64,000 nt of DNA, from assembly GCF_007741535.1 (NCBI RefSeq), contig NZ_CP036525.1, positions 7,378,001 through 7,442,000 of the forward strand. Direction: 5' to 3'. Made by a program: the position numbers and the translations under genes. The number at the start of each line of letters is the position of its first letter. Positions within the stretch are counted from its first letter, which is position 1. This document shows, in pieces, positions 10,339 through 28,400 of this stretch. The notes below the pieces were generated by a model. It was not told the origin of the DNA. It searched no databases and worked only from the letters and a program-made list of their open reading frames with translations. Source of the stretch: Rubripirellula lacrimiformis. GTDB lineage: Bacteria; Planctomycetota; Planctomycetia; Pirellulales; Pirellulaceae.

Positions 10339-10356
10339 TTGTTCACCGGCGCACCA

Positions 10357-10399
10357 CTGTCCTGGGATTGCCAGGCCTGCATCGCCTGGCCCAGGACAG
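10357..10399. repeat. two-step intergenic hairpin
   Basis: Nested inverted repeat: outer arms CTGTCCTGG/CCAGGACAG and inner arms GCCAGGC/GCCTGGC around a 7-nt loop. No T run follows, so it is not a classic terminator. It lies between the aldehyde dehydrogenase stop and the aldolase start and could stabilise or attenuate the shared transcript. Confidence 0.7.
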
Positions 10400-10458
10400 G
10401 TCGCCCGTCATTCGGTTCGCTCCGCCGCCACAACGATTCCCTTCAAGACGATATCACT

Positions 10459-12629: not shown

Positions 12630-14117
12630 CTATCTGGCGTGGCTCAAGCTAGGCGATATCAGGTTGGCTTGCATCCCGACCGGTGCAACCGCAGGGCTAG
12701 CAATTGCCGACTCGGTCTTGCGACGACAACCAAAGAACCCGCGTTGTTGGATCAAGTTAGCGACTTCTGCGGGAACGTGACTGACCCATTCCGGATCACC
12801 CTTCTGGATCTGCAGCAGCACCTCGCGAGAGAATGTCGCCAAGCACTCGGGACTGTAATTCCCCAGCTGTTCGATTTCTCCCTTGTCGACCAAGTACTGG
12901 TACAAACTACGCAGCTCCGGTGCAACTTCAAGATTCTCGACCGTCTTCAGAACGCCGGTTTCACGATCCAGCAACGGATAGATGTACAGTTTCAAATCGT
13001 TCTTGAACAAGCGCCCAAACGATTCCAGAATGCCACCATCCAGCTTGGTGTAGTACTTTTCGTCGAACAGTTCGATCAGGCTAGCAGCCCCCATGGTGAT
13101 CCCGATCTTCTTCTTCGTGTGCCGGGACAGATAGGCGGCCAAACGATAGTATTCAAAGTAGTCGGATATCAGCACCGTCAATCCAGATGCGGCCAAGACA
13201 TCCACACGTTCTAGAAAATCTCGCAGGTCGATGTCACCATTGACGCGAAGATTTCGCATCGTGATCTCGGCCAATGTCACCACTTCGTCGGCGTTGACGT
13301 CGGCTTCCTGCTGGAACTTCTCCTGAGCGGCTTTGATCATGTCCAAGTTGACGTTGGTCAGCGGACGAAAGCTGCCTCGTTCGACCAAAATGGGCTTCTT
13401 GTACAACACTTCCGACGGCTGCAAAACTTCGCCATTGGCCGAGAACATCGCAGCACTGCTGAGTCCTAGCTGGACCAATCGCAAACTCATCACGCGATTG
13501 TCGACGTGCCGGAAAGCGATCCCCGAAAACTCGATCATATCGATCTCGATTCGGCGAGTACTGAGGTTATCCAGCAGCGATTCGATCAACTGATCGGGTT
13601 CGTGATTCAGGAAGAATGCACCGTATAGCAAGTTGACGCCGACGATCCCAAGCGCCTCTTGCTGCAACGCATTCTCGGTATCCAACATGCGAACATGAAT
13701 GATGATTTGGCTGTCTTCGTCCCGCGGGTGCGCCTGGAATCGAATCCCCATCCATCCATGACAATCGTTGGTGCCATGAAAGTTGCGGGCTGATACCGTG
13801 TCGGCAAAAGCAAAGAACGCCGTCGTATCACCACGACTCTCTCGCAACCGTTCCAAGTTCAACGCATGTTCGCGGTCCAACATGTCTTGCAGTCGTTGGC
13901 GGCAGACGTATCGATCGCACTGGCCATAGATCGCATCGCTGACCGACATGTCGTAGGCCGACATGCTTTTGGCGATCGTCCCGGCAGCAGCACCGACTCG
14001 AAAGAACCAACGCACCACTTCTTGGCCCGCGCCGATTTCGGCAAACGATCCGTAACGACGCGCGTCCAAGTTGACTGCGAGCGCCTTGCGTTCTGTATTT
14101 GGTCGTTCGATTCCCAT
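12630..14117 (-). CDS. conserved protein of unknown function
   Basis: A 495-residue protein beginning with a highly characteristic segment (ALAVNLDARRYGSFAEIGAGQ, then FFRVGAAAGTIAKSMSAYD). I recognise this from a conserved family found in planctomycetes and other phyla, sometimes misannotated as a TonB-dependent receptor or nucleotide adenylyltransferase; it has no signal peptide or barrel features, so those labels are not supported. The sequence is globular and probably cytosolic. The last 25 residues (after GFFGCRRKTES) look low in complexity. No function is offered. Confidence 0.85.
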   Translation of the reverse strand: MGIERPNTERKALAVNLDARRYGSFAEIGAGQEVVRWFFRVGAAAGTIAKSMSAYDMSVSDAIYGQCDRYVCRQRLQDMLDREHALNLERLRESRGDTTAFFAFADTVSARNFHGTNDCHGWMGIRFQAHPRDEDSQIIIHVRMLDTENALQQEALGIVGVNLLYGAFFLNHEPDQLIESLLDNLSTRRIEIDMIEFSGIAFRHVDNRVMSLRLVQLGLSSAAMFSANGEVLQPSEVLYKKPILVERGSFRPLTNVNLDMIKAAQEKFQQEADVNADEVVTLAEITMRNLRVNGDIDLRDFLERVDVLAASGLTVLISDYFEYYRLAAYLSRHTKKKIGITMGAASLIELFDEKYYTKLDGGILESFGRLFKNDLKLYIYPLLDRETGVLKTVENLEVAPELRSLYQYLVDKGEIEQLGNYSPECLATFSREVLLQIQKGDPEWVSHVPAEVANLIQQRGFFGCRRKTESAIASPAVAPVGMQANLISPSLSHAR

Positions 14118-14282: not shown

Positions 14283-14663
14283 TCACCGGAACTGCCGTAG
14301 TGGGATTCGCCAGAATCGCACGATGGCAACCCGACGGTCACGAATTTGGACGAATTCCACGACGACGCAGGTTTGATCGTTGTCAGGACGGACTCGTGGC
14401 CTCGTCCCCCACGCCACACATTTCCCGTCCGCTTCGATGCCCCCACCGAACATTGATTGGGTGGATGAAGTTTGCCCAGCGGCACCGTTCGTCCGATTCC
14501 ATTGCCGAACGCTTCGGCATCGACACGAGATCTCCGCCGGCACTTCGGCCGACTGAAATTTCAAAGTCGCACGGACAATGGATATCGGGAAGTACGTCGT
14601 TGCGTCGATCGACGGTTCGTTGATCCAGGACATGGAACCGGTCGCCAGAATTGGCTGGTCCAT
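14283..14663 (-). CDS. hypothetical protein overlapping a REP half-site
   Basis: A 126-residue open frame starting MDQPILATGSMSW with codon use like its neighbours and a possible beta-strand-rich C-terminal half (TCVVVEFVQIRDRRVAIVRF). Its last codons run into the REP-like half-site at 14296-14315, which suggests that the natural 3' end was replaced by that repeat. No family is recognised; the reading may be spurious. Confidence 0.35.
   Translation of the reverse strand: MDQPILATGSMSWINEPSIDATTYFPISIVRATLKFQSAEVPAEISCRCRSVRQWNRTNGAAGQTSSTQSMFGGGIEADGKCVAWGTRPRVRPDNDQTCVVVEFVQIRDRRVAIVRFWRIPLRQFR
14296..14315. repeat. REP-like half-site
   Basis: The 20-bp word GTAGTGGGATTCGCCAGAAT occurs here, again at about 45878, and in both arms of the large palindrome at 62278-62332. 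The rest of the 14.14-14.93 kb interval holds only the doubtful small gene on the minus strand. Confidence 0.7.
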
Positions 14664-14930
14664 TGAGGTGTATTTTGGGGAACGTCCTGCCGCGGACTGA
14701 ACGTTCGCAGCACCGCCTTCGCAATTCCAGTCGTCCCACCGCAAGTCTCCGCCGGGGATGGATCGTCGATCCGAAGGCTGCCGCCCGGTTTGCAGTGGCA
14801 ACTTATTTCGCCCTTTTCCTTGACGCCCCTTCGTATGTGACACATCCTTCATTTGGATGCAAGTCACACGGCACCCTGCACGGGGAATCGGTGCGCCAAT
14901 TCAAATCTCCCTCCCCTGGGACTCTGAACG

Positions 14931-15014
14931 GGTCTTCCGAAAACGGCAAACCAACCGCGAGGCTGGGACGCAAAGCCACGGATCTCTTCGAGATCGCCGG
15001 GCTACCGAAGAAGC
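14931..15014 (+). promoter_or_regulatory. GEMM-I (c-di-GMP-I) riboswitch
   Basis: The order of conserved elements matches the class I cyclic di-GMP aptamer: GGCAAACC at 14945; a hairpin CCAACC-GCGA-GGCTGG whose GNRA loop (14957-14960) would dock in the tetraloop receptor; the invariant GGGACGCAAAGCC (14965-14977); a second hairpin with arms GATCTC/GAGATC (14981-14995); and the closing GCCGGGCTACCG. Outer strands TCTTC (14933-14937) and GAAGA (15007-15011) pair to close the structure. It lies about 80 nt before the ATG of the first cluster gene. No T-run follows, so control of translation initiation is more likely than termination. Confidence 0.9.
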
Positions 15015-15091
15015 TTATCACCCTATCAACCATCAGCTGTTCGTCGTCGCACTCCGCTCGGATGCGCAGCGGCCAATTGCAGGAGAGTCCC

Positions 15092-15481
15092 ATGCACCCA
15101 GCCCGCATCCTCGTCGCGGATGACAGCCGCACCATTCGGGCGGTCGTCTATCGATCGTTGGCCGAAGCTGGTTTCGATGTCATTTTGGCGTGCGACGGCG
15201 CCGAAGCCATTCAACTGGCCAGGCGAGAGCGACCGCATCTGGTCATCTTGGACATCCAGATGCCCGAAATCGATGGCTATGCCGCATGCGAAGAGATTCT
15301 GGCCCTGGAGAATCGAATGGAATCGCTGCCCATCATCTTCTTGACCAAAGAAAACGCAAAGCACCTCGATACGTTGGGCAATGAACTGGGCGCCTATCTA
15401 CCGAAGCCGGTTTGCGAAGAAACGCTGCTGTCCACCGTTCGCACTTTGCTTGATCGTCGGCCCGTATCGCATTCTTGTTAA
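15092..15481 (+). CDS. single-domain response regulator (CheY-like)
   Basis: A 129-residue stand-alone receiver domain: acidic pair in VADDSRT, phospho-acceptor Asp54 in ILDIQMP, Thr85 and Lys105 in LPKPV. There is no output domain, so it probably acts by protein contact, like CheY. An AGGAGAG ribosome binding site lies just upstream of the ATG at 15092; a longer open frame back to 14651 runs through the riboswitch and is not credible. It is the first gene of the riboswitch-led cluster and a likely target of the hybrid CheA. Confidence 0.92.
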   Translation: MHPARILVADDSRTIRAVVYRSLAEAGFDVILACDGAEAIQLARRERPHLVILDIQMPEIDGYAACEEILALENRMESLPIIFLTKENAKHLDTLGNELGAYLPKPVCEETLLSTVRTLLDRRPVSHSC

Positions 15482-15490
15482 CAAGCGTCC

Positions 15491-15916
15491 ATGGTTTTCG
15501 ACCCCACCTCTGCTGCCCCCATCAACGAGCGCGAAGATTTCATGCCGACACCGTTGCCACCCATCCCAACCAGCAACGAACCCATGAATGGACTGCAAAC
15601 GGAGCTGGCGGATTTTGTGAATCGAACACGCCGACGACTTCAATCCATCGCTGAAACGATCGTCGACTGCAGTGCGGACGTCCCCAGGAATCAGCAACAG
15701 ACCACTGCAATCGCAAGCGAAACGACACCAGCACGCGAACCACAGCAAACCACCGATCATCCGTTGCCAACGATCGACGCAGCCACCAGCCAAGAACCGC
15801 CGACACCATCGCTTCCCATTCCAGAGATCGAACCCGCAGTCGACGAAAACGATCCGTTGGAACGACTAAGCGCTATCAAAATCCGGCTCGCCAAACAGAT
15901 CGAATCGAGCCGCTGA
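15491..15916 (+). CDS. small hypothetical protein of the chemosensory cluster
   Basis: A 141-residue (or 124-residue if started at ATG 15542) Pro/Thr/Glu-rich protein. A short helical stretch (LADFVNRTRRRLQSIAETIV) is followed by a low-complexity middle and a second helix (NDPLERLSAIKIRLAKQIE). No known domain. It begins 10 bp after the response regulator and precedes the CheW gene, so it is co-transcribed and may be a small linker or scaffold. Confidence 0.65.
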   Translation: MVFDPTSAAPINEREDFMPTPLPPIPTSNEPMNGLQTELADFVNRTRRRLQSIAETIVDCSADVPRNQQQTTAIASETTPAREPQQTTDHPLPTIDAATSQEPPTPSLPIPEIEPAVDENDPLERLSAIKIRLAKQIESSR

Positions 15917-15954
15917 TCCCTTCGCCGCTGACACGGCACCGATCGAATTGAACC

Positions 15955-16533
15955 ATGCAAGCAACCGAAACCATTTCGAACCTACCGAACGCGTCGTCGG
16001 ACGTTGGATCGGCATACGACAAACACTGCGTCTTTCGCAGCGGTGCGTCGTGGTTCTCCGTACCAGCGGTAGCGGTGCGTGAGATTGCGATCATGCCCGA
16101 CCTGGTCCGCGTACCAAGTTGCCCATCATCGCTTGACGGAATCTGCCATCTGCGAAGCGAGTTCATTCCGGTCGTCTCGATTCATTCACTGCTGGAACAT
16201 CACGAAGACGACGACACCACGGGCCACGAAAAGCTAGTGGTTTTGCCGTGCGGTTCGGGACTCGGTTCTTGGGCCCTGCGAATCGCCGAGGCCGCGTCGC
16301 TGGTGTCACTAGAAACACTCGGCACTTCCGAATGCCCGACAACCGCCGCAAGCCAGACGTCGATCGTGGCGACAGCGATGTATCGGGATCAAATCGTGCT
16401 GGTTCTAGATCCGAACAGTCTCTACCGCGAAGTTCGGATTGCACTGGAAGATTTCTGGAACGATGCGAAGAAGCCCGTTCTAAGTTCCGTCGACAGAGAC
16501 TCATTTCGCCCGAACTTGGGGATCGAAAGATGA
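15955..16533 (+). CDS. CheW-like chemotaxis scaffold protein
   Basis: A 192-residue protein with a CheW fold signature: CVFRSGASWFSVPAVAVREI, followed by GICHLRSEFIPVVSIHSLL and later YRDQIVLVLDPNSLY. CheW couples receptors to the CheA kinase. It is longer than typical CheW (about 160) through a short N-terminal extension. Its stop overlaps the ATG of the receptor gene by 4 bp. Confidence 0.85.
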   Translation: MQATETISNLPNASSDVGSAYDKHCVFRSGASWFSVPAVAVREIAIMPDLVRVPSCPSSLDGICHLRSEFIPVVSIHSLLEHHEDDDTTGHEKLVVLPCGSGLGSWALRIAEAASLVSLETLGTSECPTTAASQTSIVATAMYRDQIVLVLDPNSLYREVRIALEDFWNDAKKPVLSSVDRDSFRPNLGIER

Positions 16534-17891
16534 AAACCCGGACTCTTCTTCTTGCGACGCACGTCATCGCAACCGCAGTGGCAGCAACGATCTTGGTCGC
16601 TGCATTTCAAACCGAATCCACACCAATCATCATCGCTGCGGTCACCATTTCCGCAGCAACCACGATGGCGATTTCGTGGTACGCAGCGACCCGGATCCGA
16701 ACGGGATTGTCCGTTTTGGAAGCCGTTGTTTCAGACAATGAGGCGTCGCGAAACCTGGTCGTCGGGCTGGCGGAGTTTGACCAAGCGGCCACCCGGATCG
16801 GCAGCGATGCCGCACGCTGGGAAGGGGTTGCAGCTGACACGCGATCCCAGGCTCGCGAGTTCAAAGCGATGATGCTGATGCTAAACCGACGCGGAACCGG
16901 CAATCAGCCATCCAGCACCCAGCTAAGGGACTTGTTGACCGGACTAGGAAGCTCGCTGCATTCGCACCTGGAGCTGATCGAACGCAGCCATTCAGAGATT
17001 CAACAAGCAGCGGAAGCGATCACCGACGGCTCCGAATCGCAAGGACACGCGATCGTTAAGACCACCAGCTACGTCGAGCAATTGGCATCAACCATCGACT
17101 CGGTATCCGTCAATGCAACCTCGGCAAAGAATGCCATTCAAAGCAACGGACAATCTGCCACCACCGCACTTCGGCTTGTCCAACAACTCGACGACGGCAT
17201 GAATCGAGTCCAAAAAGGATTTCACTCCTGCGAACAGAAGCTGCGCGGCCTTTGTGATCCGTCGCGACAAATCAGCGAGATCGTCGCAACCATCACCGAG
17301 ATCACAGCCAAGACCGACTTGTTGGCGCTGAACGCCTCGATCGAATCGATCCGCGCCGGCGAACTTGGAAGTGGCTTTGCGATCGTCGCCGAAGAGGTTC
17401 GGAAATTGGCCGAACAAACATCGGACGCCACCAGAGAGATCACCAGCCTGATCGATTCGATGCAACTGGTAACGCAGGAATCGATCCGCGGAATCGAGAA
17501 TGAACGCAGCGAAATCGAAATGGCGACCGAGAACGCATCCGCGGTGAAGAACGCGTTGGAAGAAATTCATGACGCGACCAAGCGAGATGCGACGCACGTG
17601 ATGCAAATTGCGACGTCGTCCAATCAACAGCTTCAAATTGCACAAGACGTGGTGCTGGCGGTCGAGCAAATTTCGAAAATCGCCAAGGCCAACCGTGGCG
17701 GCGCCGACAGCATCGGCTGGACGATCAAAACGCTCGCAAACGCGACCCCTGAATTCAGCGGTGCCATCGATCGACTGAGAAGCTGTTCGACGGACTCGCC
17801 CCCCGAAACGGGTCGCAGCGACGATCGCCCGGCACCGATCAACGCGTTGGACATTCCAAACACAACGTCCGGTCTGGCTTCGGTGTGCTAG
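16530..17891 (+). CDS. methyl-accepting chemotaxis-like protein without sensor domain
   Basis: A 453-residue receptor. Two membrane helices lie close together at the N-terminus (residues about 6-50) with almost no periplasmic loop, so ligand sensing would be inside the membrane or cytosol. No clear HAMP domain is seen. The signalling hairpin tip is well conserved (ITAKTDLLALNASIESIRAGE, FAIVAEEVRKLAEQT), which binds CheW and CheA. The start is the ATG overlapping the CheW stop; an upstream extension of the frame to 16248 is an antisense-like artefact of the CheW gene. No methyltransferase or methylesterase gene is nearby. Confidence 0.88.
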   Translation: MKTRTLLLATHVIATAVAATILVAAFQTESTPIIIAAVTISAATTMAISWYAATRIRTGLSVLEAVVSDNEASRNLVVGLAEFDQAATRIGSDAARWEGVAADTRSQAREFKAMMLMLNRRGTGNQPSSTQLRDLLTGLGSSLHSHLELIERSHSEIQQAAEAITDGSESQGHAIVKTTSYVEQLASTIDSVSVNATSAKNAIQSNGQSATTALRLVQQLDDGMNRVQKGFHSCEQKLRGLCDPSRQISEIVATITEITAKTDLLALNASIESIRAGELGSGFAIVAEEVRKLAEQTSDATREITSLIDSMQLVTQESIRGIENERSEIEMATENASAVKNALEEIHDATKRDATHVMQIATSSNQQLQIAQDVVLAVEQISKIAKANRGGADSIGWTIKTLANATPEFSGAIDRLRSCSTDSPPETGRSDDRPAPINALDIPNTTSGLASVC

Positions 17892-20714
17892 GTGATATCA
17901 AAAATGTACCCAAACACAACCACACCCGATCCGTCGCTACAAAGTGACCGACTGACCACGCAAGAGTCGCGAGACTTGTTGAGCGAGGTTTGGCAAGCCG
18001 CTGAAAACGCGTCTCAACAATCGTTGGTCGACTTCGTTGAAATGGTCAGTCAGGTACTGGAACTTCAAGAACGATCGGCTGACAGCGATGCGGCCAGCGA
18101 TCTTGCGTGCTTCATTGATCGCTGTATCACCGAGATTCGATCGGCGATGGAAACCGAAATGCCTTCGCCGGATCAATTGGATTCGCTGAAATCCGAGGCG
18201 ATCCAGCGTTGGGGGGACCAATGGATCGATGACAGTGAATTTGATATCGAACAGACTGGATTCGACGACAATCTTTGGGAAGAAAGCGACAACGACGACC
18301 AGGACACCGATGCGAACATCGTAGCCCCCAGTGCCGACGATATCGCGTCGATGCTAAGTCAATTGAACCTCGCGACGGCCCAACCCGTAGACGAACCAGA
18401 GCCGAACGCCCCGCCCCCGCTGGCCAACCCCACCAAGCTTGCCGATGCACCGGTTCACGCCCCGACGTCGAATCGCCAGGAAATCGTTCCCGTCGCCGCC
18501 CCCGTGGCCAAATCGACGCCGATCACCATTGCATCGCTTGATCCCGAGCTGAAAGAGGCGTTTTTGGACGACGCGTCGAGTTGCTTAGCATCCATGGAAG
18601 CAGCCCTGTTGCAGCTGGAATCGGATCCGAAACACGCAGTATCGCTCAACCAAATCTGCCGTGAATTGCACACGTTGAAGGGAGCTTCGGCGAGCGTTGG
18701 ATTGACCGAATTGGCGGAACAACTGCACGGCATCGAGGATCGCCTGCACGAGGATGAAACCGCAGGTCGAACTCCTAGTTTTGATTCGCTGCTACAGAAC
18801 GTCGATTCCATTCGAGGACAAATCACTGGAAATGATCGCGATCTGACGGACACGCCATCGCAACCCAGTGTGCCGAAACAGTCCGACGACGCGGATTCAC
18901 ATCACGTGTCGCCGCCCAACATGTCATTTGACGATGGACCGATCGATGACGAGTCGGTGCGGGTGAAGTCATCCCAGTTGAATCGTTTGATGGACATGCT
19001 GGCCGAGCTTGTGATGCTCCGCAATCGCCGCGAGACCGAAGTGACGCAGTTGCAAGACGTCTATCACGAATTGATCGGCAGCGCTGCAAAGATGCGAACG
19101 ATCGGTCACGAGGGGCACGGCAGCACCAGCAGTTCGCTGCAACTTTCCGAAGTCGCCAACGACGTCATCGAAGTGGCTCAGAACGTTCGCGAATGCGCCC
19201 GCCCCGTCGCGGAAGGGAACGTCGCAGTTTCGCAATTCATCCGTCAATTCCGCAAGGAACTGGTCGAACTTCGGCGAACGCCTATCTCTGGCCTGTTCCG
19301 ACGACTGCAACGCGTTGTTCGCGACGCGGCCCATGCCGAATCCAAACAGGTACGTTTAGTACTCGTCGGCGAAGACGCTGGCATCGAACGATCATTGCAA
19401 CAACGGCTTTACGAACCGCTGCTGCACATTGTCCGCAACTGCGTCTGTCACGGCATTGAATCGGCGCTGGATCGCGAGCGACTTGGAAAACCCTCGGCAG
19501 GAACGATCACGTTGGAGGCCACTTCCGGCCCCGATCTGTTCACGATCGAAATCCGCGACGACGGAGCCGGTTTGGATTACGACGGCATTCGCCGCCGCGG
19601 GATCGATTCGGGACTGCTGGAAGCCAACCAGAGCGTCACTGAAAAAGAGCTCGCACAACTGATCTTTCAACCCGGCTTTTCCACGCGACAAACCGCCAAC
19701 CAGGTCGCCGGCCGTGGCGTGGGAATGGATGTGGTTTCGGCGACGCTGCAACGCATGCGAGGATGGCTGGAAATTGATTCGCAGCCGCAGCAGGGCACAC
19801 GCATCCGCATGAGCTTCCCGCTTCCGTCCGTGATCCAGCATGCGATGGTGTTCCGATCGGCCGACCAACTTTTCGCGTTGCCGATGCAGTCAGTCCACAC
19901 CGCCGGTGGCAACGACTCGAATTCGGTATCGATTGAATTTTCCAAGTTGTTGGATGGATACAAACCAGCACTAAGTGGACCGCGACACGCAATCGTGTTG
20001 GCCTGCGGCGAGGATCATTCCGGATCGCCGGGATCCGGCCGCCAACGCGTCACGCTGATCGTTGATGAGATCGTTGGTCCAGAGGAAGTCGTTGTCCGTC
20101 CGTTGCCAGCCATCTTGAAAAAGCACCCGTTCTGCACGGGCGCAACACTTTCAGGGATGGGACAGACCGTCCTTCTCCTGGATGCTCGGCGAGTGGTCGA
20201 GTCACAAAGTCGACCAATCCGTTCGCCCAGTCAGACGCTTGTACAAAACTGCGTGGCATCGGATCCCCGTCCTCCGGAACCGAAATCGGAGGCCCGTCCA
20301 CGCGTCTTGGTCGTGGATGATTCGATCAGTGCCCGCAAACGAGTGGTTCGATCGCTGCAGCGTTACACCGTGGACATCGTCGAAGCGTCCAACGGGCGTG
20401 AGGCACTGCAACTGCTAAAGACCCAACGTTTCGCCGCCGTGTTCAGCGATATGGAGATGCCACACATCAGCGGCATGGATCTTCTGGCTGAAATCAACTC
20501 GCGTGCAGGTTCCGATGCACCGCCGGTCATCATCATTAGCAGTCGAAGCGAGAACGAATTCACCGATCGCGCCAAACAGCTTGGCGCGAACAACTACTTG
20601 ATCAAACCGCTCGCTGACGAATCGCTGGACCAAGCAATCGTCGGAATCGAGTCCCTGAAACATCTGCAACCTACACCACCAAAACATTCCCAAGCGAACG
20701 GAGAGAACCAATGA
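17892..20714 (+). CDS. cheA: hybrid chemotaxis histidine kinase CheA with receiver
   Basis: A 940-residue hybrid kinase: a variable N-terminal region (1-210), Hpt domain with phospho-His260 in ELHTLKGASASVG, dimerisation segment (about 350-430), ATPase domain with N box HIVRNCVCHGIE, G1 box DDGAGLDYDG and G2 box GRGVGMDVV, a CheW-like domain (about 640-780) and a C-terminal receiver (from about 808, VLVVDDSISARK, Asp in SDMEMP). The N box has Cys where Asp is common (RNxxDHGIE). It starts at GTG 17892, directly after the receptor stop, or at ATG 17904. It should phosphorylate its own receiver and the stand-alone CheY-like protein. Confidence 0.92.
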   Translation: MISKMYPNTTTPDPSLQSDRLTTQESRDLLSEVWQAAENASQQSLVDFVEMVSQVLELQERSADSDAASDLACFIDRCITEIRSAMETEMPSPDQLDSLKSEAIQRWGDQWIDDSEFDIEQTGFDDNLWEESDNDDQDTDANIVAPSADDIASMLSQLNLATAQPVDEPEPNAPPPLANPTKLADAPVHAPTSNRQEIVPVAAPVAKSTPITIASLDPELKEAFLDDASSCLASMEAALLQLESDPKHAVSLNQICRELHTLKGASASVGLTELAEQLHGIEDRLHEDETAGRTPSFDSLLQNVDSIRGQITGNDRDLTDTPSQPSVPKQSDDADSHHVSPPNMSFDDGPIDDESVRVKSSQLNRLMDMLAELVMLRNRRETEVTQLQDVYHELIGSAAKMRTIGHEGHGSTSSSLQLSEVANDVIEVAQNVRECARPVAEGNVAVSQFIRQFRKELVELRRTPISGLFRRLQRVVRDAAHAESKQVRLVLVGEDAGIERSLQQRLYEPLLHIVRNCVCHGIESALDRERLGKPSAGTITLEATSGPDLFTIEIRDDGAGLDYDGIRRRGIDSGLLEANQSVTEKELAQLIFQPGFSTRQTANQVAGRGVGMDVVSATLQRMRGWLEIDSQPQQGTRIRMSFPLPSVIQHAMVFRSADQLFALPMQSVHTAGGNDSNSVSIEFSKLLDGYKPALSGPRHAIVLACGEDHSGSPGSGRQRVTLIVDEIVGPEEVVVRPLPAILKKHPFCTGATLSGMGQTVLLLDARRVVESQSRPIRSPSQTLVQNCVASDPRPPEPKSEARPRVLVVDDSISARKRVVRSLQRYTVDIVEASNGREALQLLKTQRFAAVFSDMEMPHISGMDLLAEINSRAGSDAPPVIIISSRSENEFTDRAKQLGANNYLIKPLADESLDQAIVGIESLKHLQPTPPKHSQANGENQ

Positions 20715-22345
20715 GCGACAAAACGGTACTTGTGATTGACGACAGCGCAACGATTCGGAAGCTGGTCGATACACACCTGACGCCCGCCGGCTATCGCGTC
20801 ATCTTGGCGCCCAACGCCGAAGACGGATTGCAGTTCGCTTCGGAAGTAAATCCTGACTTGATCCTTTTGGATCACCAGTTGCCAGGCACCACCGGCTACC
20901 AGGTGTGTTGCCAATTGGTGGAAAATCCCCAGCTTTGCAAAATCCCTGTCGTTGTGAGTTCAACGCTGCGAAAGAAAGCGTACGCAGAGTACATCGACTT
21001 GGACAACGTCGTCGACATGTTGCCCAAGCCATATACCGAGGAACTGCTGTTAACGACGGTAGCCAATGCGATTCAAACCGGCGTCATGGTTGTTTCGTCG
21101 CAATCCGGTGGCAGCGCAGTCCCCGAAGTCATTGAACAATTGGATGACGCGGGATTGGCCGGATCGTTCGCCTGTTTCGGACTTCGCGAAATCGTCGACT
21201 TCCTGAACAACGGGCGAAAGGCTGGCGTTCTGGAAATTGAAGCCGATCGCACCCGCATTCGATTCCACCTCGATCGCGGTCGCATCCAGGGTGTTTATGC
21301 ATCGGGAATCGATCCCAACCAGATCGACCGGATGGTGGCCCGACTGCCACAATCACTGGCTAACTTAGCACCAGTTTTCAAGATGACGATTGGGGGACGA
21401 AGCTGTGCGGAACTGGACGGATTTGTTCAACTGCTGGACCAAAAGGTGCTCGATCCGCGTCTGATGACAAAGATGCTTCGATTTCAAGCGGCGATGTTGG
21501 TCCAATTCGCCTTCACGAATCCGTTGTCCGCGTTCCGATTCGAAGCCGGCCACAGCGAAAACTCGCTCCACAAGAACCTGCCGCTCGACATCAGCTTGCT
21601 CGCTCTTTTGGTCGAAGCAGCCATGCACGACGATGATGACGACACGCATGATCGGGCGCCCCAGAATATGGTCTACGTCCGCCGCGCCATCCGTGGCCAA
21701 AACCTGGATCGTGCCGGTCTATCCGCACGCCACATGAAGGTATTGAACCTTCTGGCAGAACCAAAGAGCGCCGACGATTTGTCGCAAACGCTAGGCTGGA
21801 ATCCTGATGAAGTCCGACAAGTCTTGACCGGGTTCACACTCGCCGAACTGGTCGAATCTCGCACCCAGAATGTCGCCGGTTCCTTCGTCGTTTTCGAACC
21901 GCAAGCCGACGCTGCTCAGTCGCTTCGAACCTCACTGGAAGAATCCGACAATCGCTATACCGGGAAAGTCGTTCGCGACAAACTTGCTCTGCAATTGGTG
22001 CTGAAACGAACCGTGCCCCATACGCTGGTATTTGCAGGCGACGACCAAGCGACATGCCTGCTGATGAAGCAGCTTTTTGCGACCAAGAATCCCAAGGCTG
22101 CGAAAATCAAACGAGTCGCATTGATCTCAGCAGATCCGCACTCGCAAAACATCGACTGGAACGAATCTCTCGGATTTACCCCCGACGAAACGCTCCGTCG
22201 CCCCGCCACTGCCGAACTTTTGTTTCGAGTCATGGATCGGATTCATGACGACAGCGACACCGCATCATCGGTGTTGCCCAACATTCCGATCCCGTCCGAA
22301 GTTCAGAATGCACCTGTTGCACTCACCGCAGGAGCCGAAGCATGA
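20711..22345 (+). CDS. receiver-DUF4388 (PatA-like) response regulator
   Basis: A 544-residue protein. Residues 1-125 are a receiver (VIDDSATIRK, phospho-Asp in ILLDHQLPG, Lys in MLPKPY). From about 145 comes a DUF4388/PATAN-like region (FGLREIVDFLNNGRKAGVLEI, then HLDRGRIQGVYA), typical of PatA-type regulators that organise signalling complexes, followed by a winged-helix-like stretch (HMKVLNLLAEPKSADDLSQTL) and a second possible receiver-like domain. It overlaps both neighbours by 4 bp (ATGA), so it is tightly co-translated with CheA and the FHA protein. Confidence 0.85.
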   Translation: MSDKTVLVIDDSATIRKLVDTHLTPAGYRVILAPNAEDGLQFASEVNPDLILLDHQLPGTTGYQVCCQLVENPQLCKIPVVVSSTLRKKAYAEYIDLDNVVDMLPKPYTEELLLTTVANAIQTGVMVVSSQSGGSAVPEVIEQLDDAGLAGSFACFGLREIVDFLNNGRKAGVLEIEADRTRIRFHLDRGRIQGVYASGIDPNQIDRMVARLPQSLANLAPVFKMTIGGRSCAELDGFVQLLDQKVLDPRLMTKMLRFQAAMLVQFAFTNPLSAFRFEAGHSENSLHKNLPLDISLLALLVEAAMHDDDDDTHDRAPQNMVYVRRAIRGQNLDRAGLSARHMKVLNLLAEPKSADDLSQTLGWNPDEVRQVLTGFTLAELVESRTQNVAGSFVVFEPQADAAQSLRTSLEESDNRYTGKVVRDKLALQLVLKRTVPHTLVFAGDDQATCLLMKQLFATKNPKAAKIKRVALISADPHSQNIDWNESLGFTPDETLRRPATAELLFRVMDRIHDDSDTASSVLPNIPIPSEVQNAPVALTAGAEA

Positions 22346-23754
22346 TCGACCGAGCAACCCAAAACAGAACCATCCGGTTGACCGCGACCCACGAATTGGG
22401 ATCCACAGAACACCATGATCTGAAACAAGACCAAAGCGTGTTCGTCGGATCATCGTCGAATTGCGGCTTCCGACTTGTCGGTAACGATTTGTCAGAAATC
22501 CACTGCCACATTGGGATCGAAGACGGCAAGCTGATGGTTCAAGACTGGATGTCCAGCCAGGGAACCCGCGTCAACGGCGAATTGATCTCGGCACAAGTCG
22601 AGATCCAGCCAGACGACATCGTCCAGATCGGCAAATACGAAATCTCATTCTCTTCCATTGGGTCGAATTCTTACGCAACTGCCCCGATCGCCAAGGTCAC
22701 CGCTGAACCTCCGCCACCGGTGGTTGCAACGCCCGCTGTTGAAACATCTGTTGTTGAAACATCTGTTGTTGAAACATCTGTTGATCGGCAGATCCAGCAG
22801 CAATCACCCGCGGCGCTACCAGCAGAGTCTTCGTCCAACAGCGACACGACGATGGACGTGCCGGATGACGAAACCCCCAATTCGTTTGATTTTGATGACG
22901 ACTTTTTCAAGATCGACGAAGAGGAGACCTACGACCGAGAAACGGTCGCTTTGCTTCACGCCGAAATCGAAGAACTGCAGGCCGCTCTTGCCCAGCGGGA
23001 TGCGGAACGTTCGTGCGAACGCTGCGACCAACGCATGGAGGACGACATCCATGACCCCTTGGTCGATGGATCGGACGAAGTTCTGCAACGGATGCAAGAC
23101 CTGATCGATGAAGCGAACCGCAGCGACGAACACGTTTCGATACTCGAAGAAAGTTTGCACGCAGCCGAGGATGCAAACCGAACCGGCCAAGAAGAACGAA
23201 GGCAACTAGAAGCCTGGGTGGCCGACATCGAAAAGCGAATTGGTCAACGCGAAGACGAACACGCCGCCGAAGTCGATGCACTGCGTCAACGCCTGGAAGA
23301 ATCCACCGAGCAACAGCAACGACTACAACGTCAACTGCGGCAAGCGGCCACCGGTGGGAACGCACCCAAGCACTACGAGGAAACACTGGAACAACTGCAG
23401 GCGACCAACAAGTCGCTGCAGGATTCATTGGCCGAGACCCAGAAAGAACGGACTTCTCTCGAGCAACGCATCGAAACACTTTCGGACGTCCAGGAAATTT
23501 CGCTGCGAGAGGAACGAGCAAGCATTGCCAAAGAACAGGCGAAGCTTTCTCGAATGCGATTCGAAATCACCAGCAAACTTGCCGAAGTCGAAGACTTGCC
23601 GAAAGTGGAAAACCCCGCCGATCGGGAAACAAGCAATCGAATCCAAGCCCTTCGACAACACCTGCGTGAAATTCACGAACAAGAGAAGTCCGAGGAAAAG
23701 GAAGTGTCGTTGACCAGTCGTCTTGCCAAACTTTGGCATCGAGTCGAGTACTGA
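22342..23754 (+). CDS. FHA-domain coiled-coil protein
   Basis: A 470-residue protein. The N-terminal FHA domain (about 12-105) has the phosphothreonine-binding signature: VGSSSNCGFRL, a Ser-x-x-His motif in LSEIHCHI, and SSQGTRVNGE. A low-complexity linker follows, with the pentapeptide VVETS repeated three times. Residues from about 190 form a long charged coiled coil. It would recognise phosphothreonine proteins and assemble a scaffold. It begins inside the stop of the PatA-like gene. Confidence 0.88.
   Translation: MIDRATQNRTIRLTATHELGSTEHHDLKQDQSVFVGSSSNCGFRLVGNDLSEIHCHIGIEDGKLMVQDWMSSQGTRVNGELISAQVEIQPDDIVQIGKYEISFSSIGSNSYATAPIAKVTAEPPPPVVATPAVETSVVETSVVETSVDRQIQQQSPAALPAESSSNSDTTMDVPDDETPNSFDFDDDFFKIDEEETYDRETVALLHAEIEELQAALAQRDAERSCERCDQRMEDDIHDPLVDGSDEVLQRMQDLIDEANRSDEHVSILEESLHAAEDANRTGQEERRQLEAWVADIEKRIGQREDEHAAEVDALRQRLEESTEQQQRLQRQLRQAATGGNAPKHYEETLEQLQATNKSLQDSLAETQKERTSLEQRIETLSDVQEISLREERASIAKEQAKLSRMRFEITSKLAEVEDLPKVENPADRETSNRIQALRQHLREIHEQEKSEEKEVSLTSRLAKLWHRVEY
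22738..22785 (+). repeat. 15-bp in-frame tandem repeat in FHA gene
   Basis: Three copies of a 15-bp unit (GTTGAAACATCTGTT) encode VETSV repeats in the linker between the FHA domain and the coiled coil. Copies are identical, which suggests recent slippage. Confidence 0.85.
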
Positions 23755-23756
23755 TC

Positions 23757-24380
23757 ATGGTTCCGCCAACAGCAACCGAACCCGATGACGCAGCCCGATG
23801 CGAAGTCCATTCCGTGCCCCCAATCGGAGACCAATCATTGATCGTCAACGATGATGGATCCGCAAACGATGCTGTGATTGCGTCGTTGCAAGGCGTCGTT
23901 AGCGACGTCGACGATTTCATGTCTTCCTGGTTGGAACGGTTATCCCAATCCGACGTATTGTGCCAGAATCCGCTCACGACGGACCAACGACTGCGTGAAC
24001 GTATCGAGAGGTTCGAGCGAGAGAAATCACGTTGGGAGGACAAACGGAGGTGCCAGGAACGGGAAATTCACCAGAAACTGGATCAACTTTCCGATGCATG
24101 GCTCCGTCTCGAATCAGAGCAACGTAGGTTTTTGCAGACAAAAGGCTCGCGCCACCCAATCGCTGTCGCCAACAACGCGGCAATCGATGACGGTGTCGAG
24201 AAGAATCCAGTGCCGATCAGTGGTAAGCAAAGCGTGAACGAGCAGGTCTCGTCACCACGTTCTGTCGAAGCAACGGCCAGTGAAGCTCGCGAGTCTGCTG
24301 TTCTGCAATTCCAACGTTTGAGGCAGGAAATCGAATTCAATCGGCCAAGTTCAGGTGCTGCTCCTTTAGGCACTCCATGA
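23757..24380 (+). CDS. coiled-coil hypothetical protein
   Basis: A 207-residue protein dominated by a charged helical centre (RERIERFEREKSRWEDKRRC and following, about residues 80-130). No family is recognised. It starts 2 bp after the FHA gene stop, so it belongs to the same transcript and could partner the FHA coiled coil. Confidence 0.75.
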   Translation: MVPPTATEPDDAARCEVHSVPPIGDQSLIVNDDGSANDAVIASLQGVVSDVDDFMSSWLERLSQSDVLCQNPLTTDQRLRERIERFEREKSRWEDKRRCQEREIHQKLDQLSDAWLRLESEQRRFLQTKGSRHPIAVANNAAIDDGVEKNPVPISGKQSVNEQVSSPRSVEATASEARESAVLQFQRLRQEIEFNRPSSGAAPLGTP

Positions 24381-24432
24381 ACGGCAACAAGGATTCGACC
24401 TGCACGTCACCCATGTTTCGTGGAGATCCAAA

Positions 24433-25464
24433 TTGTCGCTCGCTTCTCTCTTGACCGATGCCATCGGCATATGGAAGCCACGTGCATCGAGCGACGTTGC
24501 AAGTCGATTTCCCGATGTTGCAGACGCTCCCCCGGATACGCGAAGGCTGATTCGCAACCGTCGCTACTGTTGCGTATTGACGAACAAAGATGACCTGCCC
24601 TTTGATGACGTATCGTTATCATTCGCTTGGCAAGCACTGCAACACGACATGGCAATGGTTCCCGGCGGCGACGTCCAACAAGTCTGTGATTCCATCATCG
24701 CCACCAACGCCGGCTTCGAGATCGTGCCGAGCCCGAATCGAGTGGTGAGCGTCGATTCGATTTACTTGGATCGCGATTGCGTTACCAATGCCGACTTCGC
24801 CAGATTCGTCGAATCCGATGGCTACGGAAATCCCGATCTTTGGCCCGCAGTGATCTTGCCAAACGTCCTACAGTTTTCAGACAGCAGTGGCCAACCCGGC
24901 CCTAAATATTGGGTCAACGGCGACCCGCCATCGGACAAACTAGACCACCCGGTCGTCGGCATCAGCTGGTACGAAGCCAGTGCATTTGCGACATGGGCAG
25001 GCAAACGACTGCCATCATCCGCCGAATGGCAACGCGCCGGAACGTGGCCGAAAGGTCACAGCAGTGATGGCACCGAATTGCATTTCCCTTGGGGAAACGG
25101 TTTTGATCCGGCGAAAGCCAACGTCTGGTCCAGCGGGGTCGGCGACACGGTTGCCGTCACGGAGTTTGAACGAGGACGCACGCCCAACGGAGTCCGCCAA
25201 TTGGTCGGCAATGTCTGGGAGTGGGTCGACACTCAGTTTGAACCGAGCACCGGCGACGGTGTCTCGGTTCTGCTTGACCAAACGATGGCCGAGATTCGAG
25301 GCGGAGCATTCGACACCTACTTTCAGACCCAGGCGACCTGCCAATTTCACACCGGCCAGCCGCTATTGTTTCGCGGTGCCAATGTTGGTTTCAGGTGCTG
25401 CGTCAGCGCAAGCGAAATCCCCGACGTGGATCGCGGCGTCATTCGTTCTAGTGAGGCTGTTTGA
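24433..25464 (+). CDS. formylglycine-generating-enzyme-like (SUMF1) protein
   Basis: A 343-residue protein whose last 270 residues are a SUMF1/FGE-sulfatase fold: MVPGGD near the start, then VVGISWYEASAFATWAGKRL, PSSAEWQRAG, FPWGN, NVWEWV and GAFDTY with a final GFRCC. True formylglycine-generating enzymes need a Cys pair in their C-terminal region; only a Cys pair at the very end (FRCC) is seen, so this may be a binding or sensing version as is common in conflict and signalling proteins. No ATG is available in the first 70 residues; TTG 24433, preceded by GGAGA at good spacing, is the likely start. The stop overlaps the GTPase start. Confidence 0.82.
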   Translation: MSLASLLTDAIGIWKPRASSDVASRFPDVADAPPDTRRLIRNRRYCCVLTNKDDLPFDDVSLSFAWQALQHDMAMVPGGDVQQVCDSIIATNAGFEIVPSPNRVVSVDSIYLDRDCVTNADFARFVESDGYGNPDLWPAVILPNVLQFSDSSGQPGPKYWVNGDPPSDKLDHPVVGISWYEASAFATWAGKRLPSSAEWQRAGTWPKGHSSDGTELHFPWGNGFDPAKANVWSSGVGDTVAVTEFERGRTPNGVRQLVGNVWEWVDTQFEPSTGDGVSVLLDQTMAEIRGGAFDTYFQTQATCQFHTGQPLLFRGANVGFRCCVSASEIPDVDRGVIRSSEAV

Positions 25465-26381
25465 TGATCGCGACAACCAACCAAGTGAATGCCGGTTTCC
25501 CGCCGATCACCGTCGACTGTGCCTGCTGCGATCAACGGCTGCCCGATCGCGTTGAATATTGCGCCGAGTGCAGCACTCCCGCGTCATTATCCCACGCCGT
25601 CGCAAAACGCGTTGGAACCCAAAGCTTTGTTTCGGTACTGGGTGCCAGCAACGCCGGCAAAACGGTCTACTTGGGATTGCTGTTGGACATCCTTAGCAAG
25701 GGCACCGACGCGTTCCGAGGATTGCCAACCAGCGCATTTTCGATCGACTTGCAAGAGCAGGTGATCACCGCACTGGAAGGCCGCGTCTTTCCCGACAAAA
25801 CACCCTCGGAAGCCGATGCTTGGAAATGGCTGCACTGCCAGATTTCAATGGCTGAAAAGAAGAAACAACGCAACGTGGATTTGGTGTCGCCCGACTTTGC
25901 GGGCGAAGCGATCTCGCTAGAAATCGACCAGACCGGTACCTATCCAGCCATCGGTCATGTGGTGAAGAAGTCCAGCGGGATCTTGATTCTTTGCGATTCA
26001 ATGCGGGTGCGTGACGCGGGTTCCGGTGAAGACCTATTCGCTACCAAACTAGCGTCGTACATCGCCCAAGCACACGGACTGACCAGCGACCACGGCAACA
26101 GCCGATCACGCAAACACGGCCCCCGCATCGCGATCGTGTTTACCAAATGCGATGGTTGCCCCGAGGCGACCGAAGATCCGTCACGATTCGCCGCGAACAA
26201 CACGTCACGGCTGTTCGAGTATTGTCGCCGGACCTTTTCGCAACATGCTTTTTTTGCTGCCAGCGTCGCAGGAAGCTCTGGCATCCTGGCAGACGAAACC
26301 GGCCGCCAAATGCGTATCCCCTTTCACATCCAACCACGCGGCATCATCGAACCGCTTCAGTGGATCGTCAACCAGGGATAG
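25464..26381 (+). CDS. zinc-ribbon P-loop GTPase (DO-GTPase-like)
   Basis: A 305-residue protein. An N-terminal Cys cluster (CACC then CAEC, about residues 20-37) looks like a zinc ribbon. A P-loop GASNAGKT follows at about 60-67, a Walker-B-like ILILCDS and a base-recognition motif VFTKCD in place of NKxD. This is a TRAFAC-type GTPase resembling the GTPases that accompany GAP1 proteins (DO-GTPase families) in bacterial conflict-type loci. The start ATG overlaps the upstream stop (TGATG). Its partner gene follows after 19 bp. Confidence 0.8.
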   Translation: MIATTNQVNAGFPPITVDCACCDQRLPDRVEYCAECSTPASLSHAVAKRVGTQSFVSVLGASNAGKTVYLGLLLDILSKGTDAFRGLPTSAFSIDLQEQVITALEGRVFPDKTPSEADAWKWLHCQISMAEKKKQRNVDLVSPDFAGEAISLEIDQTGTYPAIGHVVKKSSGILILCDSMRVRDAGSGEDLFATKLASYIAQAHGLTSDHGNSRSRKHGPRIAIVFTKCDGCPEATEDPSRFAANNTSRLFEYCRRTFSQHAFFAASVAGSSGILADETGRQMRIPFHIQPRGIIEPLQWIVNQG

Positions 26382-26400
26382 CCCCACCACAGGACCTTAC

Positions 26401-27195
26401 ATGGACACCATGAATGTCGACCAGGCCGTGTTCGCATCTTCGGATCGCGGAACCACCAAAGGCTATCAGCTGGTTTCGAAATCGATCGGTGTGGATCGTG
26501 CAATTGGCACAGCCTTGTCGCATTGGGCCCCCACACGGTTGCCAAGCGAGAACGTCAACCACTGGTCGATCAATGCATTTCCCGTTTCCGATGACCGCTT
26601 CGCGATCAGTCGTACGGTCGTCGGAGGCCCCGAGTACAGCGGTCGCGGCGGCCGCGAAGTGGTGACGTTGTTCTTGCTGCTCAGCAACGAACAGTTTGCA
26701 TTCTACGAATGGGATGCCATCGCCGTAGCCAGAACGGCAATCGCCATGGGGATGCTAAGGCTTCCTCTACAAATCGAAGGCGACCAACTTCCCCAAGCAA
26801 TGATTCCGTCCCGGCCTATCATGAACTCGATGGATCTTGCCGACGGTCAACCCGACGAAGATGTCAACGAGTCAATGCTGGATGACGTTATCGCGATCCT
26901 GAACGACTCCCGTCGTGTGGCTCTGATCGGATTGAATGACCCGATCCTTACCGCAACACGATTGGTTGCACGCCTGCCAATTCAAGCAAGACAAAACTTC
27001 AGCTTCACGACCGGTTTGCCTCCATCGGTGCACCGTCCATTCCACGCTCACTTCTTTTCGTCCGAAGTGACACTGAAACAACATGCGTTGGAAGCACAAA
27101 AAGTCGTCTGCTTTCATGCACAAAAGAAGTTCGAACAATATCGTTCGCAGGTTTTAGTGCAACAAGGCTCCGTAGGCGTCCCACATGGAATGTGA
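26401..27195 (+). CDS. GTPase-associated protein, GAP1-N-like
   Basis: A 264-residue protein. The start (MNVDQAVFASSDRGTTKGYQ, then VSKSIGVDRAIGTALSHWAP) resembles the GAP1-N domains that are coded next to DO-GTPases. The usual GAP1 protein is much larger, with middle and C-terminal parts; here only the N-terminal domain and a short following segment (WLHA-like ARLPIQARQNFSFTTGLPPS) exist. The frame is open upstream to 26152 over the GTPase gene, but the ATG at 26401 is at the homology start. Together with the preceding GTPase it forms the end of the riboswitch-led cluster. The family call is from memory of the motif and needs a profile search. Confidence 0.65.
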   Translation: MDTMNVDQAVFASSDRGTTKGYQLVSKSIGVDRAIGTALSHWAPTRLPSENVNHWSINAFPVSDDRFAISRTVVGGPEYSGRGGREVVTLFLLLSNEQFAFYEWDAIAVARTAIAMGMLRLPLQIEGDQLPQAMIPSRPIMNSMDLADGQPDEDVNESMLDDVIAILNDSRRVALIGLNDPILTATRLVARLPIQARQNFSFTTGLPPSVHRPFHAHFFSSEVTLKQHALEAQKVVCFHAQKKFEQYRSQVLVQQGSVGVPHGM

Positions 27196-27444
27196 GTCCG
27201 ACATGCAACGCACTTCGCACCGTTGCCCTATACAGATCGGGCCAAGTTTCCGGCGTAAAAACTTGCCGCAGCGATTGGCATAGAGTAACTTCATTCGCGA
27301 TGGCTGCCGCGACGGTATACTCCAAACCAATTGAAAGATCGCGGACGAGGTCGACGGATCGATACCAAAAGCGTCCGTCGCCCCAAACGTGATGATTGCG
27401 ACGCGATCCCATCTGACACACGCAAACCAGATTCGGGTCAATCG

Positions 27445-28329
27445 ATGTCGCCCGATGCCACACTTGAAACTCGGATCGATCGAAGGTCGGCTCGAACACC
27501 AAGCAACGCGCGGAGCACTCCTTTGATTCACTTCATCATTCGGCTGACCATCGCATCATGCGTCGTCTTTTCGATTTCTGCGCGGCCCGCACAATCGGCG
27601 ATCACACCGCAATTGATTCAGCGTTGTAAGTCTGCGACCGTTTACATTTCCGACAGCGATCGTTTGGCATCCGGCAGCGGTGTCTGCATCGACACGCGGG
27701 GCTATTTTGCCACCAACGCACACGTGGTCGATGCGATTGACGGGAAAATATTGGTGACCGTCAATCCTGGTGAATCCTCCTACAAACAGTACGAGGCGAC
27801 CGTCGTCGCACGGTCTGCCAAAGACGATCTGGCAATTCTGTTCGTCGAAAATGCTGCACAACTGACCGCTCTCGAACTTCCGGATGACGTGGGCGTGACC
27901 GAAGGCCAAGAGGTCATCGCGCTGGGGTTTCCATTTGGCAGCGGTTTGGCGACGGACGGATCCGACGAACTTTCTGTCAGCGTCAATGTTGCACGCGTCA
28001 GTGCACTGCACAGCGAATCCGGTGGAGTTCAGCAAATTGAATTTGATTCGCAACTCAATCCCGGTAACTCCGGCGGCCCGGTCGTCAACCTTGATGGACA
28101 AATCATCGGAATCGCCCAAAGCATTTTGATCTTCGTCTCGGAGAAAGAAACAAAAAATCTAGGCGTCAACTTTGCGGTGGCAACCCGCAGGCTGCAGGCT
28201 TTGATGACACGTCCCGAGATCGTAGTAAGCCGAGTTCAGACGCCTTACCTTGACACACCACTGGAAATCGATTTCAAGTTCAAACAACCGGCTCAGCCCG
28301 CATTATTCACCGGGAACTTCGTGAATTGA
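27445..28329 (+). CDS. trypsin-like serine protease, exported
   Basis: A 294-residue protease of the HtrA/trypsin type. A signal peptide or anchor (HFIIRLTIASCVVFSISA) is followed by a two-barrel domain with His in ATNAHVVDA, Asp in AKDDLAIL and Ser in NPGNSGGPV, a complete triad. There is no PDZ domain. I choose ATG 27445; the frame extends to TTG 27331. It lies 250 bp after the GAP1-like gene on the same strand, so it may have its own promoter. Trypsin-like proteases are frequent partners in GTPase/GAP1 and FGE-containing loci, so a functional link is possible. Confidence 0.85.
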   Translation: MSPDATLETRIDRRSARTPSNARSTPLIHFIIRLTIASCVVFSISARPAQSAITPQLIQRCKSATVYISDSDRLASGSGVCIDTRGYFATNAHVVDAIDGKILVTVNPGESSYKQYEATVVARSAKDDLAILFVENAAQLTALELPDDVGVTEGQEVIALGFPFGSGLATDGSDELSVSVNVARVSALHSESGGVQQIEFDSQLNPGNSGGPVVNLDGQIIGIAQSILIFVSEKETKNLGVNFAVATRRLQALMTRPEIVVSRVQTPYLDTPLEIDFKFKQPAQPALFTGNFVN

Positions 28330-28400
28330 AAAGCCATCGCGTGAAACGCTACGTTTAACGGTTAACCACAACCAACTTAAACACAGCAAGGAATCACGCG

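Follow-up and report, generated by a model that had tools for sequence, protein, structure and literature searches.

A c-di-GMP-I-type riboswitch aptamer heads a planctomycete gene run that joins a chemosensory array to a DO-GTPase and a GAP1 protein

Why would a riboswitch aptamer, chemosensory genes, and a GTPase with a putative GTPase-activating protein (GAP) stand together in one run of genes? This question is raised by a locus of Rubripirellula lacrimiformis (Planctomycetota), whose 8.54-Mb genome is a single contig. We analyzed a 64,000-nucleotide stretch of this genome (the window; positions 7,378,001 to 7,442,000 of NZ_CP036525.1), and coordinates below are positions within it. The aptamer is followed on the + strand by 11 co-directional genes, from cheY (starting at 15092) through the gene for GAP1 (ending at 27195). 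We give about even chances to the idea that these form one functional unit: a chemosensory array, tuned by cyclic di-GMP (c-di-GMP), that drives an envelope GTPase/GAP switch, most likely for pilus-based surface attachment.

From 5' to 3', with their Pfam domains, the genes are cheY (Response_reg), a gene for a 141-amino-acid protein (none), cheW (CheW), a gene for a methyl-accepting chemotaxis protein (MCP; MCPsignal), a hybrid cheA (Hpt, HATPase_c, CheW, and Response_reg), a patA-like gene for a receiver-DUF4388 protein (Response_reg and DUF4388), and genes for an FHA-coiled-coil protein (FHA), a protein without a Pfam family (none), a protein with the fold of formylglycine-generating enzyme (FGE; FGE-sulfatase), a DO-GTPase (DO-GTPase1/2), and GAP1 (GAP1-N2). 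The coordinates of the open reading frames (ORFs) confirm the co-directional run of eleven genes that a first-pass annotation of this DNA had described, and the order recurs in relatives. That annotation had put CheW directly after CheY, whereas the 141-amino-acid protein is second and CheW is third.

Alternatively, the run might hold two units, with the riboswitch and the chemosensory genes serving motility or attachment, and FGE/GTPase/GAP1 as an independent housekeeping module downstream. We consider this somewhat unlikely. Five terminator-like patterns lie within the run on the + strand (at 21457, 22058, 22932, 25083, and 25423), as two units might require, but such patterns are no more frequent than by chance (12 in total in 14500-29000, fewer than the 18.4 in shuffled sequences). 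On the other side, reading frames overlap by 4 bp at patA/fha and at FGE/GTPase (as they also do at cheW/mcp and cheA/patA), and the + strand of 14500-29000 has no sigma-70-like site (the scan found two sites, both on the - strand, versus 5.4 expected from shuffles). These pattern scans are weak evidence whichever way they point; for what they are worth, they agree with the earlier view that the run is unsplit.

Relatives are more informative about whether the two halves belong together. We scanned contigs with the GTPase alignment, which gave 186 relatives, and kept 80 loci; all but three of the relatives (L148, L187, and L218) have titles that name planctomycete taxa. We dropped 22 of the 80 loci because they had less than 7 kb upstream (one of these, L163, does show cheA). 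Among the 58 loci with at least 7 kb upstream, 33 have cheA at most 9 kb away on the same strand, and 32 of those 33 also have patA; the other 25 have neither. Named carriers of the gene run include Singulisphaera acidiphila, Stieleria tagensis, a Rhodopirellula baltica record, and Aquisphaera insulae. A GTPase match was present in 26 of the 60 genomes searched (our genome included) and in 5 of 21 other genomes of the same genus. Starting instead from the PatA-like regulator, we found strong matches (E below 1e-100) in 25 of 149 genomes of the family, again including our own. The GTPase gene lies downstream on the same strand at 21 of these 25 loci, and at another (G137) the contig ends inside the FGE gene. 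The GTPase was not seen at the remaining three (G029, for which 12.0 of 20.4 kb was viewed, G110, and G174), which favors two units; two of these are from one genus.

A maximum-likelihood tree of 104 GTPase rows has a 100/98 split into sides of 47 and 57 rows. On the 47-row side, 41 rows are linked to the chemosensory genes, 5 are cut by contig ends, and just one (L200) is unlinked. On the 57-row side, none are linked, 36 have enough flank to be scored as unlinked, and 21 are contig-cut; here the FGE/GTPase/GAP1 trio occurs without chemosensory genes, as expected if there were two units. However, the linkage persists in both Pirellulaceae and Isosphaeraceae (the latter represented, for example, by L186, Singulisphaera acidiphila), and L200 is the only verified break on the linked side. 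The state of linkage changes twice on the tree if contig-cut rows are left out, or six times if they are counted as unlinked. Because the linked rows are all on one side of the tree, the linkage is most simply explained by a single origin, after which it was kept, or else by a single loss on the other side. (The loci for the tree and for the conservation counts were picked by similarity to the window's GTPase, and are not a sample of all genomes.) In sum, the conserved linkage on which the reading of the first-pass annotation depends does hold on one side of the tree.

Could the locus be a conflict or immunity system instead? The DO-GTPase and GAP1 would then act as a threshold switch in an anti-invader system whose effector is the FGE-fold protein and to which the chemosensory array was added as a sensor. 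(Here and below, papers are cited from the parts of their text that are available.) GAP1-N2/DO-GTPase systems have been placed among the conflict systems, and those named include planctomycete examples that have FGS (FGE-fold) proteins (Kaur et al. 2020, PMC7159879). The GTPase of those systems is a TRAFAC GTPase that has an N-terminal zinc ribbon and whose Walker B region contains a Glu, and the systems include a downstream GAP1 gene with N, M, and C domains, a component with FNIII repeats, and a variable effector (PMC7159879). The zinc-ribbon DO-GTPase, the downstream GAP1-N2, and the FGE-fold partner are common to both. In other words, the FGE/DO-GTPase/GAP1 core is already described, and the joined chemosensory array and riboswitch are the new part: the first-pass annotation knew of no described system of this composition, which fails for the core but stands for the coupling, since we found no description in the open-access literature, as far as its text is available, of CheA/CheW/MCP and a riboswitch combined with FGE/DO-GTPase/GAP1.

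In contrast to the available account of those systems, the genes here form one run with a CheA/CheW/MCP/CheY array under a riboswitch, their composition is constant rather than variable, and in the window's GAP1, which is short, neither an M nor a C domain was detected. FGE adjoins the GTPase in 79 of the 80 loci, the GTPase tree falls into two sides that are stable, not into shuffled partnerships, the genome has one GTPase match and one GAP1-N2 match, and none of the eleven genes has an FNIII match. The first-pass annotation also listed trypsin-like proteins in the co-occurring set. A Trypsin_2-like serine protease ORF (27331-28329, +) starts 135 bp after GAP1, but no such gene is at the corresponding place in the relatives' loci, and we rejected it as a member of the cluster. 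Given this clustered inheritance, we set aside the idea of a conflict-type array and rate a conflict role as quite unlikely.

The riboswitch aptamer (14936..15010, +) matches Rfam model RF03167, the GGC variant of the c-di-GMP-I riboswitch, at 69 bits (gathering cutoff 59, E = 3.1e-14, model positions 1-80). It is the only Rfam match above gathering in the window, and it upholds the GEMM-I element that had been read by eye at the head of the run. The leader from the aptamer to cheY (15011..15091, 81 nucleotides) has a GGAGAG Shine-Dalgarno sequence and, by eye, no terminator with a U-run. Among relatives, we scored 24 loci, the window included, and excluded those whose leader was outside the view. 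An aptamer of the c-di-GMP-I clan is above gathering at the head of the cluster in 14 of these (the window, G016, G130, G072, G109, G125, G098, G178, G187, G080, G153, G168, G129, and TBK1r). The next gene is cheY in 12 of the 14; G125 and G080 have no recognized cheY, and there the aptamer stands before the cheW part. We found no aptamer in the other 10 leaders (G151, G110, G174, G025, G036, G019, G113, G071, G093, of which only about 600 nucleotides are visible, and Singulisphaera). When placed on the GTPase tree, the aptamer requires three changes over 20 scored rows, that is, one gain inside the linked side and two losses. (These rows exclude G110, G174, and Singulisphaera, which lack the aptamer, and TBK1r, which has it.) Because one gain within the linked side fits the tree, the aptamer seems to be a later addition, younger than the linkage between the chemosensory genes and the GTPase.

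Where else does this riboswitch occur? RF03167 has matches in 85 of the 149 genomes of the family at E up to 0.001, and in 66 of them above the cutoff. We examined 30 sites, namely the 29 best-scoring sites and the second site of the source genome. At 17 of these, a Flp pilin gene lies at most about 320 nucleotides downstream on the same strand; 4 are at the chemosensory/GTPase cluster; and the remaining 9 were left unassigned, though two of them have TadE/TadG-like ORFs by eye. The source genome itself has two RF03167 matches (the only c-di-GMP riboswitch class searched genome-wide): the one in the cluster's leader, and another that precedes Flp and Tad-type genes. In L063 (G024:C74), there are tandem riboswitches about 0.9 kb apart, with a Flp pilin gene after each, and at G111:C84:92301-93332, two riboswitches that lie about 1 kb from each other are divergent.

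The ligand of the aptamer is predicted to be c-di-GMP, from the name of the family; in GEMM-I aptamers, one base (position 20) can switch between cGAMP and c-di-GMP (PMC6456294). Folding of 11 of 13 leaders (G125 and G080 were left out as no cheY start was recognized) gave no consistent change in the openness of the Shine-Dalgarno sequence between the locked and the free aptamer. By eye, 10 of 13 leaders have TTGAC about 94-120 nucleotides upstream of the aptamer, which could be a shared promoter. As the strict pattern occurs in just 4 of the 13, and the window's leader is not among them, we make no claim for this motif.

Behind the leader, the chemosensory array is complete by Pfam for CheA (with Hpt and HATPase domains), CheW, the MCP signaling domain, and CheY. 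CheY (15092..15481) is a single-domain response regulator of 129 amino acids (PF00072, E = 1.5e-21). The uncharacterized 141-amino-acid protein (15491..15916) has no Pfam family above cutoff and has tblastn matches in only some relatives. CheW (15955..16533; PF01584, E = 2.8e-13) is followed by the MCP-like receptor (16530..17891; PF00015, E = 1e-34), which by eye has two hydrophobic stretches with almost no loop between them, and in which no sensor domain was recognized. The hybrid CheA (17892..20714) combines Hpt, HATPase_c, CheW, and receiver domains.

A second flagellar chemotaxis system, whose array steers the flagellar motor via CheY, would explain these genes too, and FlhA and FliG_C homologs are found in all 8 genomes tested. 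(For this reason, we rejected an argument from the absence of flagella in Isosphaeraceae.) But Pfam finds no CheR or CheB among the eleven genes, and a separate CheA/CheW set with a CheR is encoded elsewhere, about 316 kb away. (It accounts for one of the genome's three CheR matches; the other two are in long ORFs at other places.) The PATAN and pilus associations also point away from the flagellum, and we regard a flagellar role as highly doubtful.

The PATAN association comes from the PatA-like regulator (20711..22345; PF00072 and PF14332), whose DUF4388 we take to be the PATAN domain. It is 38-74% identical to the window's protein over 24 rows, with a mean column identity of 56%, and Asp10, Asp11, Asp54, and Lys106 are kept in all aligned rows. 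In the AlphaFold2 model (pLDDT 78.7, pTM 0.48), the receiver is followed by parts that resemble PATAN, a winged helix, and, at the C-terminus, a receiver; the parts beyond residue 305 were read by eye. In a fold search, the matches listed were receiver domains or receiver-containing proteins, and the other parts had no clear partner. In Synechocystis, PATAN regulators bind to PilB, the motor of the pilus (PMC10519157). Because of this, and because the riboswitch is common to Flp/Tad pilus genes, a pilus or attachment output is favored as the most likely one; this is an association, not proof.

Turning to the other half, the DO-GTPase (25461..26381; PF19993, E = 9.9e-13, and PF19975, E = 9e-13; the TTG start was picked by the ORF tool) keeps the P-loop, DxAG(E/D), and KxD motifs. 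All 104 rows have Gly61, Gly66, Lys67, Thr68, Gly148, Lys229, and Asp231, as well as Cys34 and Cys37 of the zinc ribbon, and Asp145 is present in 103. Residue 149 is Glu in 97 of the 104 rows and Asp in 7. Glu149 presumably sits at the place of Ras Gln61, and the enzyme may need help to hydrolyze GTP. We read Glu149 as the Glu of the Walker B region described by Kaur et al. 2020.

Is GAP1 (26401..27195, 264 amino acids; PF20013, E = 4.7e-10) that help? We know of no biochemistry for the DO-GTPase/GAP1 pair. The GAP1-N2 domain is found in 30 of 30 members examined and GAP1-M in 3 of 30, the window's protein not among them; the C domain is not listed (most of these members are fragments of the length of a tblastn hit). 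A wider count of homologs used the best 120 of 948 hits, our own protein included, with 7995 candidates scored. By sequence, the best hit of GAP1 among solved structures has E = 0.38, and we rejected a link at that level. The structural model (pLDDT 90.6) resembles TagF and the longin/DENN regulators of GTPases, with fold-search scores near background. In the model, the loop 75-86 lies between strands 66-74 and 87-95 (beta4 and beta5). It carries Glu78-Tyr-Ser/Thr-x-Arg82, in which the Tyr and the Ser are not invariant. Arg82 (codon 26644-26646) is present in all 98 rows that could be compared (6 of the 104 tree rows had no GAP1 match). DENN GAPs carry an arginine finger between strands 4 and 5 (PMC8213707, PMC12803157), and GAP1 has this conserved Arg in common with FLCN, NPRL2, SMCR8, and Avl9, which its predicted fold may resemble too. 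From the predicted fold and the conservation, GAP1 is predicted to act as a GTPase-activating protein via Arg82. The broader claim, that GAP1-N2 proteins are bacterial longin/DENN-type GAPs with Arg82 as arginine finger and that the operon couples a chemosensory system directly to a GTPase/GAP switch whose abundance c-di-GMP sets through RNA, we put forward only tentatively. The words "longin", "TagF", and "DENN" do not occur in the text of Kaur et al. 2020.

The resemblance to TagF suggests another possibility: GAP1 might bind and restrain the FHA protein, with the GTPase as gate, and the target might be a machine like the type VI secretion system (T6SS) or a pilus. By structure, GAP1 matches TagF best (226 of 264 residues), the run includes an FHA gene, and binding of TagF to Fha represses the T6SS (PMC5995506; see also PMC6082577). 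TssC, a T6SS component, has matches in 7 of 8 cluster-carrying genomes tested. (The homolog of TssC/VipB in the source genome is at G000:C1:3080283-3081188, - strand; a T6SS may be present in this genome and likewise in 6 of the 7 other carriers tested.) On the other hand, the carrier K23_9 has no TssC match, and we rejected the T6SS as an obligatory target. Pfam matches up to E = 10 for the 30 GAP1 members do not include the TagF family (most matches that weak are removed by the filters of HMMER), and in place of the PpkA kinase of the available T6SS descriptions there is a chemosensory array. The window's FHA protein has no tblastn match in the stand-alone FGE/GTPase/GAP1 loci, where GAP1 persists. 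The conserved Arg loop also suits the GTPase better as a partner: at one locus (L133:6652-7350, - strand, of G174), where GAP1 remains and FGE and the GTPase were not found, the Glu/Arg loop is missing. We consider a TagF-like role unlikely, and prefer a GAP that acts on the GTPase.

What do the genes in the middle of the run do? FHA domains contact phosphothreonine through an Arg and a Ser. In the FHA-coiled-coil protein (22342..23754, 470 amino acids; PF00498, E = 4.8e-10), His54 is present in 36 of 36 distinct orthologs, and a Gly and a Thr in 35 each, but just 6 of 36 have the contact Arg, and 13 of 36 have the contact Ser. The first-pass annotation had phosphothreonine recognition feeding the GTPase, which these counts speak against. 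The next gene (23757..24380; the ORF opens at 23733 and the start was picked by eye) encodes a coiled-coil-like protein without a Pfam family, and many relatives have a similar protein at this position. In nine stand-alone FGE/GTPase/GAP1 loci, a related coiled-coil-like gene stands before FGE (for example, L044:8519-11089, 856 amino acids, and L046:6089-8728, 879 amino acids).

Formylglycine-generating enzymes have two catalytic cysteines in a C-terminal motif. The FGE-fold protein (24433..25464; PF03781, E = 1.1e-34) has solved FGEs among its structure matches. Its motif in the window is RGGAFDTYFQTQATC; in the alignment, 15 of 17 rows have one Cys, and no second Cys occurs across the 20 aligned columns. 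Because the catalytic Cys pair is missing, the protein is likely to have a role in binding or in structure, and is better not described as a catalytic FGE.

As for the flanks, 28839-29885 (+) encodes a DDE_Tnp_1_4 transposase, and the adjoining ORF 28401-28808 (+) is possibly its N-terminal part; together they resemble an insertion element that has been split in two. Upstream of the cluster, 12630-14117 (-) encodes a 495-amino-acid protein without a Pfam match, and 10339-11742 (+) encodes one chain with two class II aldolase stretches.

How might a single unit work? The aptamer 5' of cheY would set the abundance of the array, in step with the Flp/Tad genes behind the genome's other detected aptamer. 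The aptamers themselves are observed; we infer the ligand, the direction of control, and a single transcript. The MCP, CheW, and the hybrid CheA would make up a second chemosensory array, without CheR or CheB in the run. CheA would phosphorylate CheY and the receiver-PATAN protein (the domains are present, and the chemistry is what we would expect of them). The output would go to a scaffold of the FHA, coiled-coil, and FGE-fold proteins, and to the DO-GTPase. GAP1, whose longin/DENN-like predicted fold and conservation we observed, would turn the GTPase off via Arg82 in the beta4-beta5 loop.

Parts of this scheme are familiar. The Pix, Pil, and Tax systems of Synechocystis also combine a chemotaxis-like array with a PATAN-type regulator, but GTPase, GAP1, FGE, or FHA partners are not described in the available text, and PATAN is N-terminal in those regulators while it follows the receiver in the window's protein (PMC7690835, PMC10519157).

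A closer parallel comes from Myxococcus xanthus. In that bacterium, the kinase of the Frz chemosensory system feeds a GTPase/GAP switch (MglA and MglB), as we propose for the cluster. The GTPase family and the GAP fold are different there; the window's system is headed by a riboswitch and is encoded in one gene run. If our proposal is true, the cluster would be a counterpart of the Frz-MglA/MglB logic that was built a second time, independently, and GAP1 would be a bacterial protein related in form to the FLCN/NPRL2/DENN regulators. The cellular context differs from the conflict role that was proposed for DO-GTPase and GAP1, and the pair gains a concrete prediction, namely that Arg82 is the arginine finger. 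Three layers that are usually studied apart (a second-messenger RNA, a chemosensory phosphorelay, and a GTPase switch) would then meet in one conserved run of planctomycete genes.

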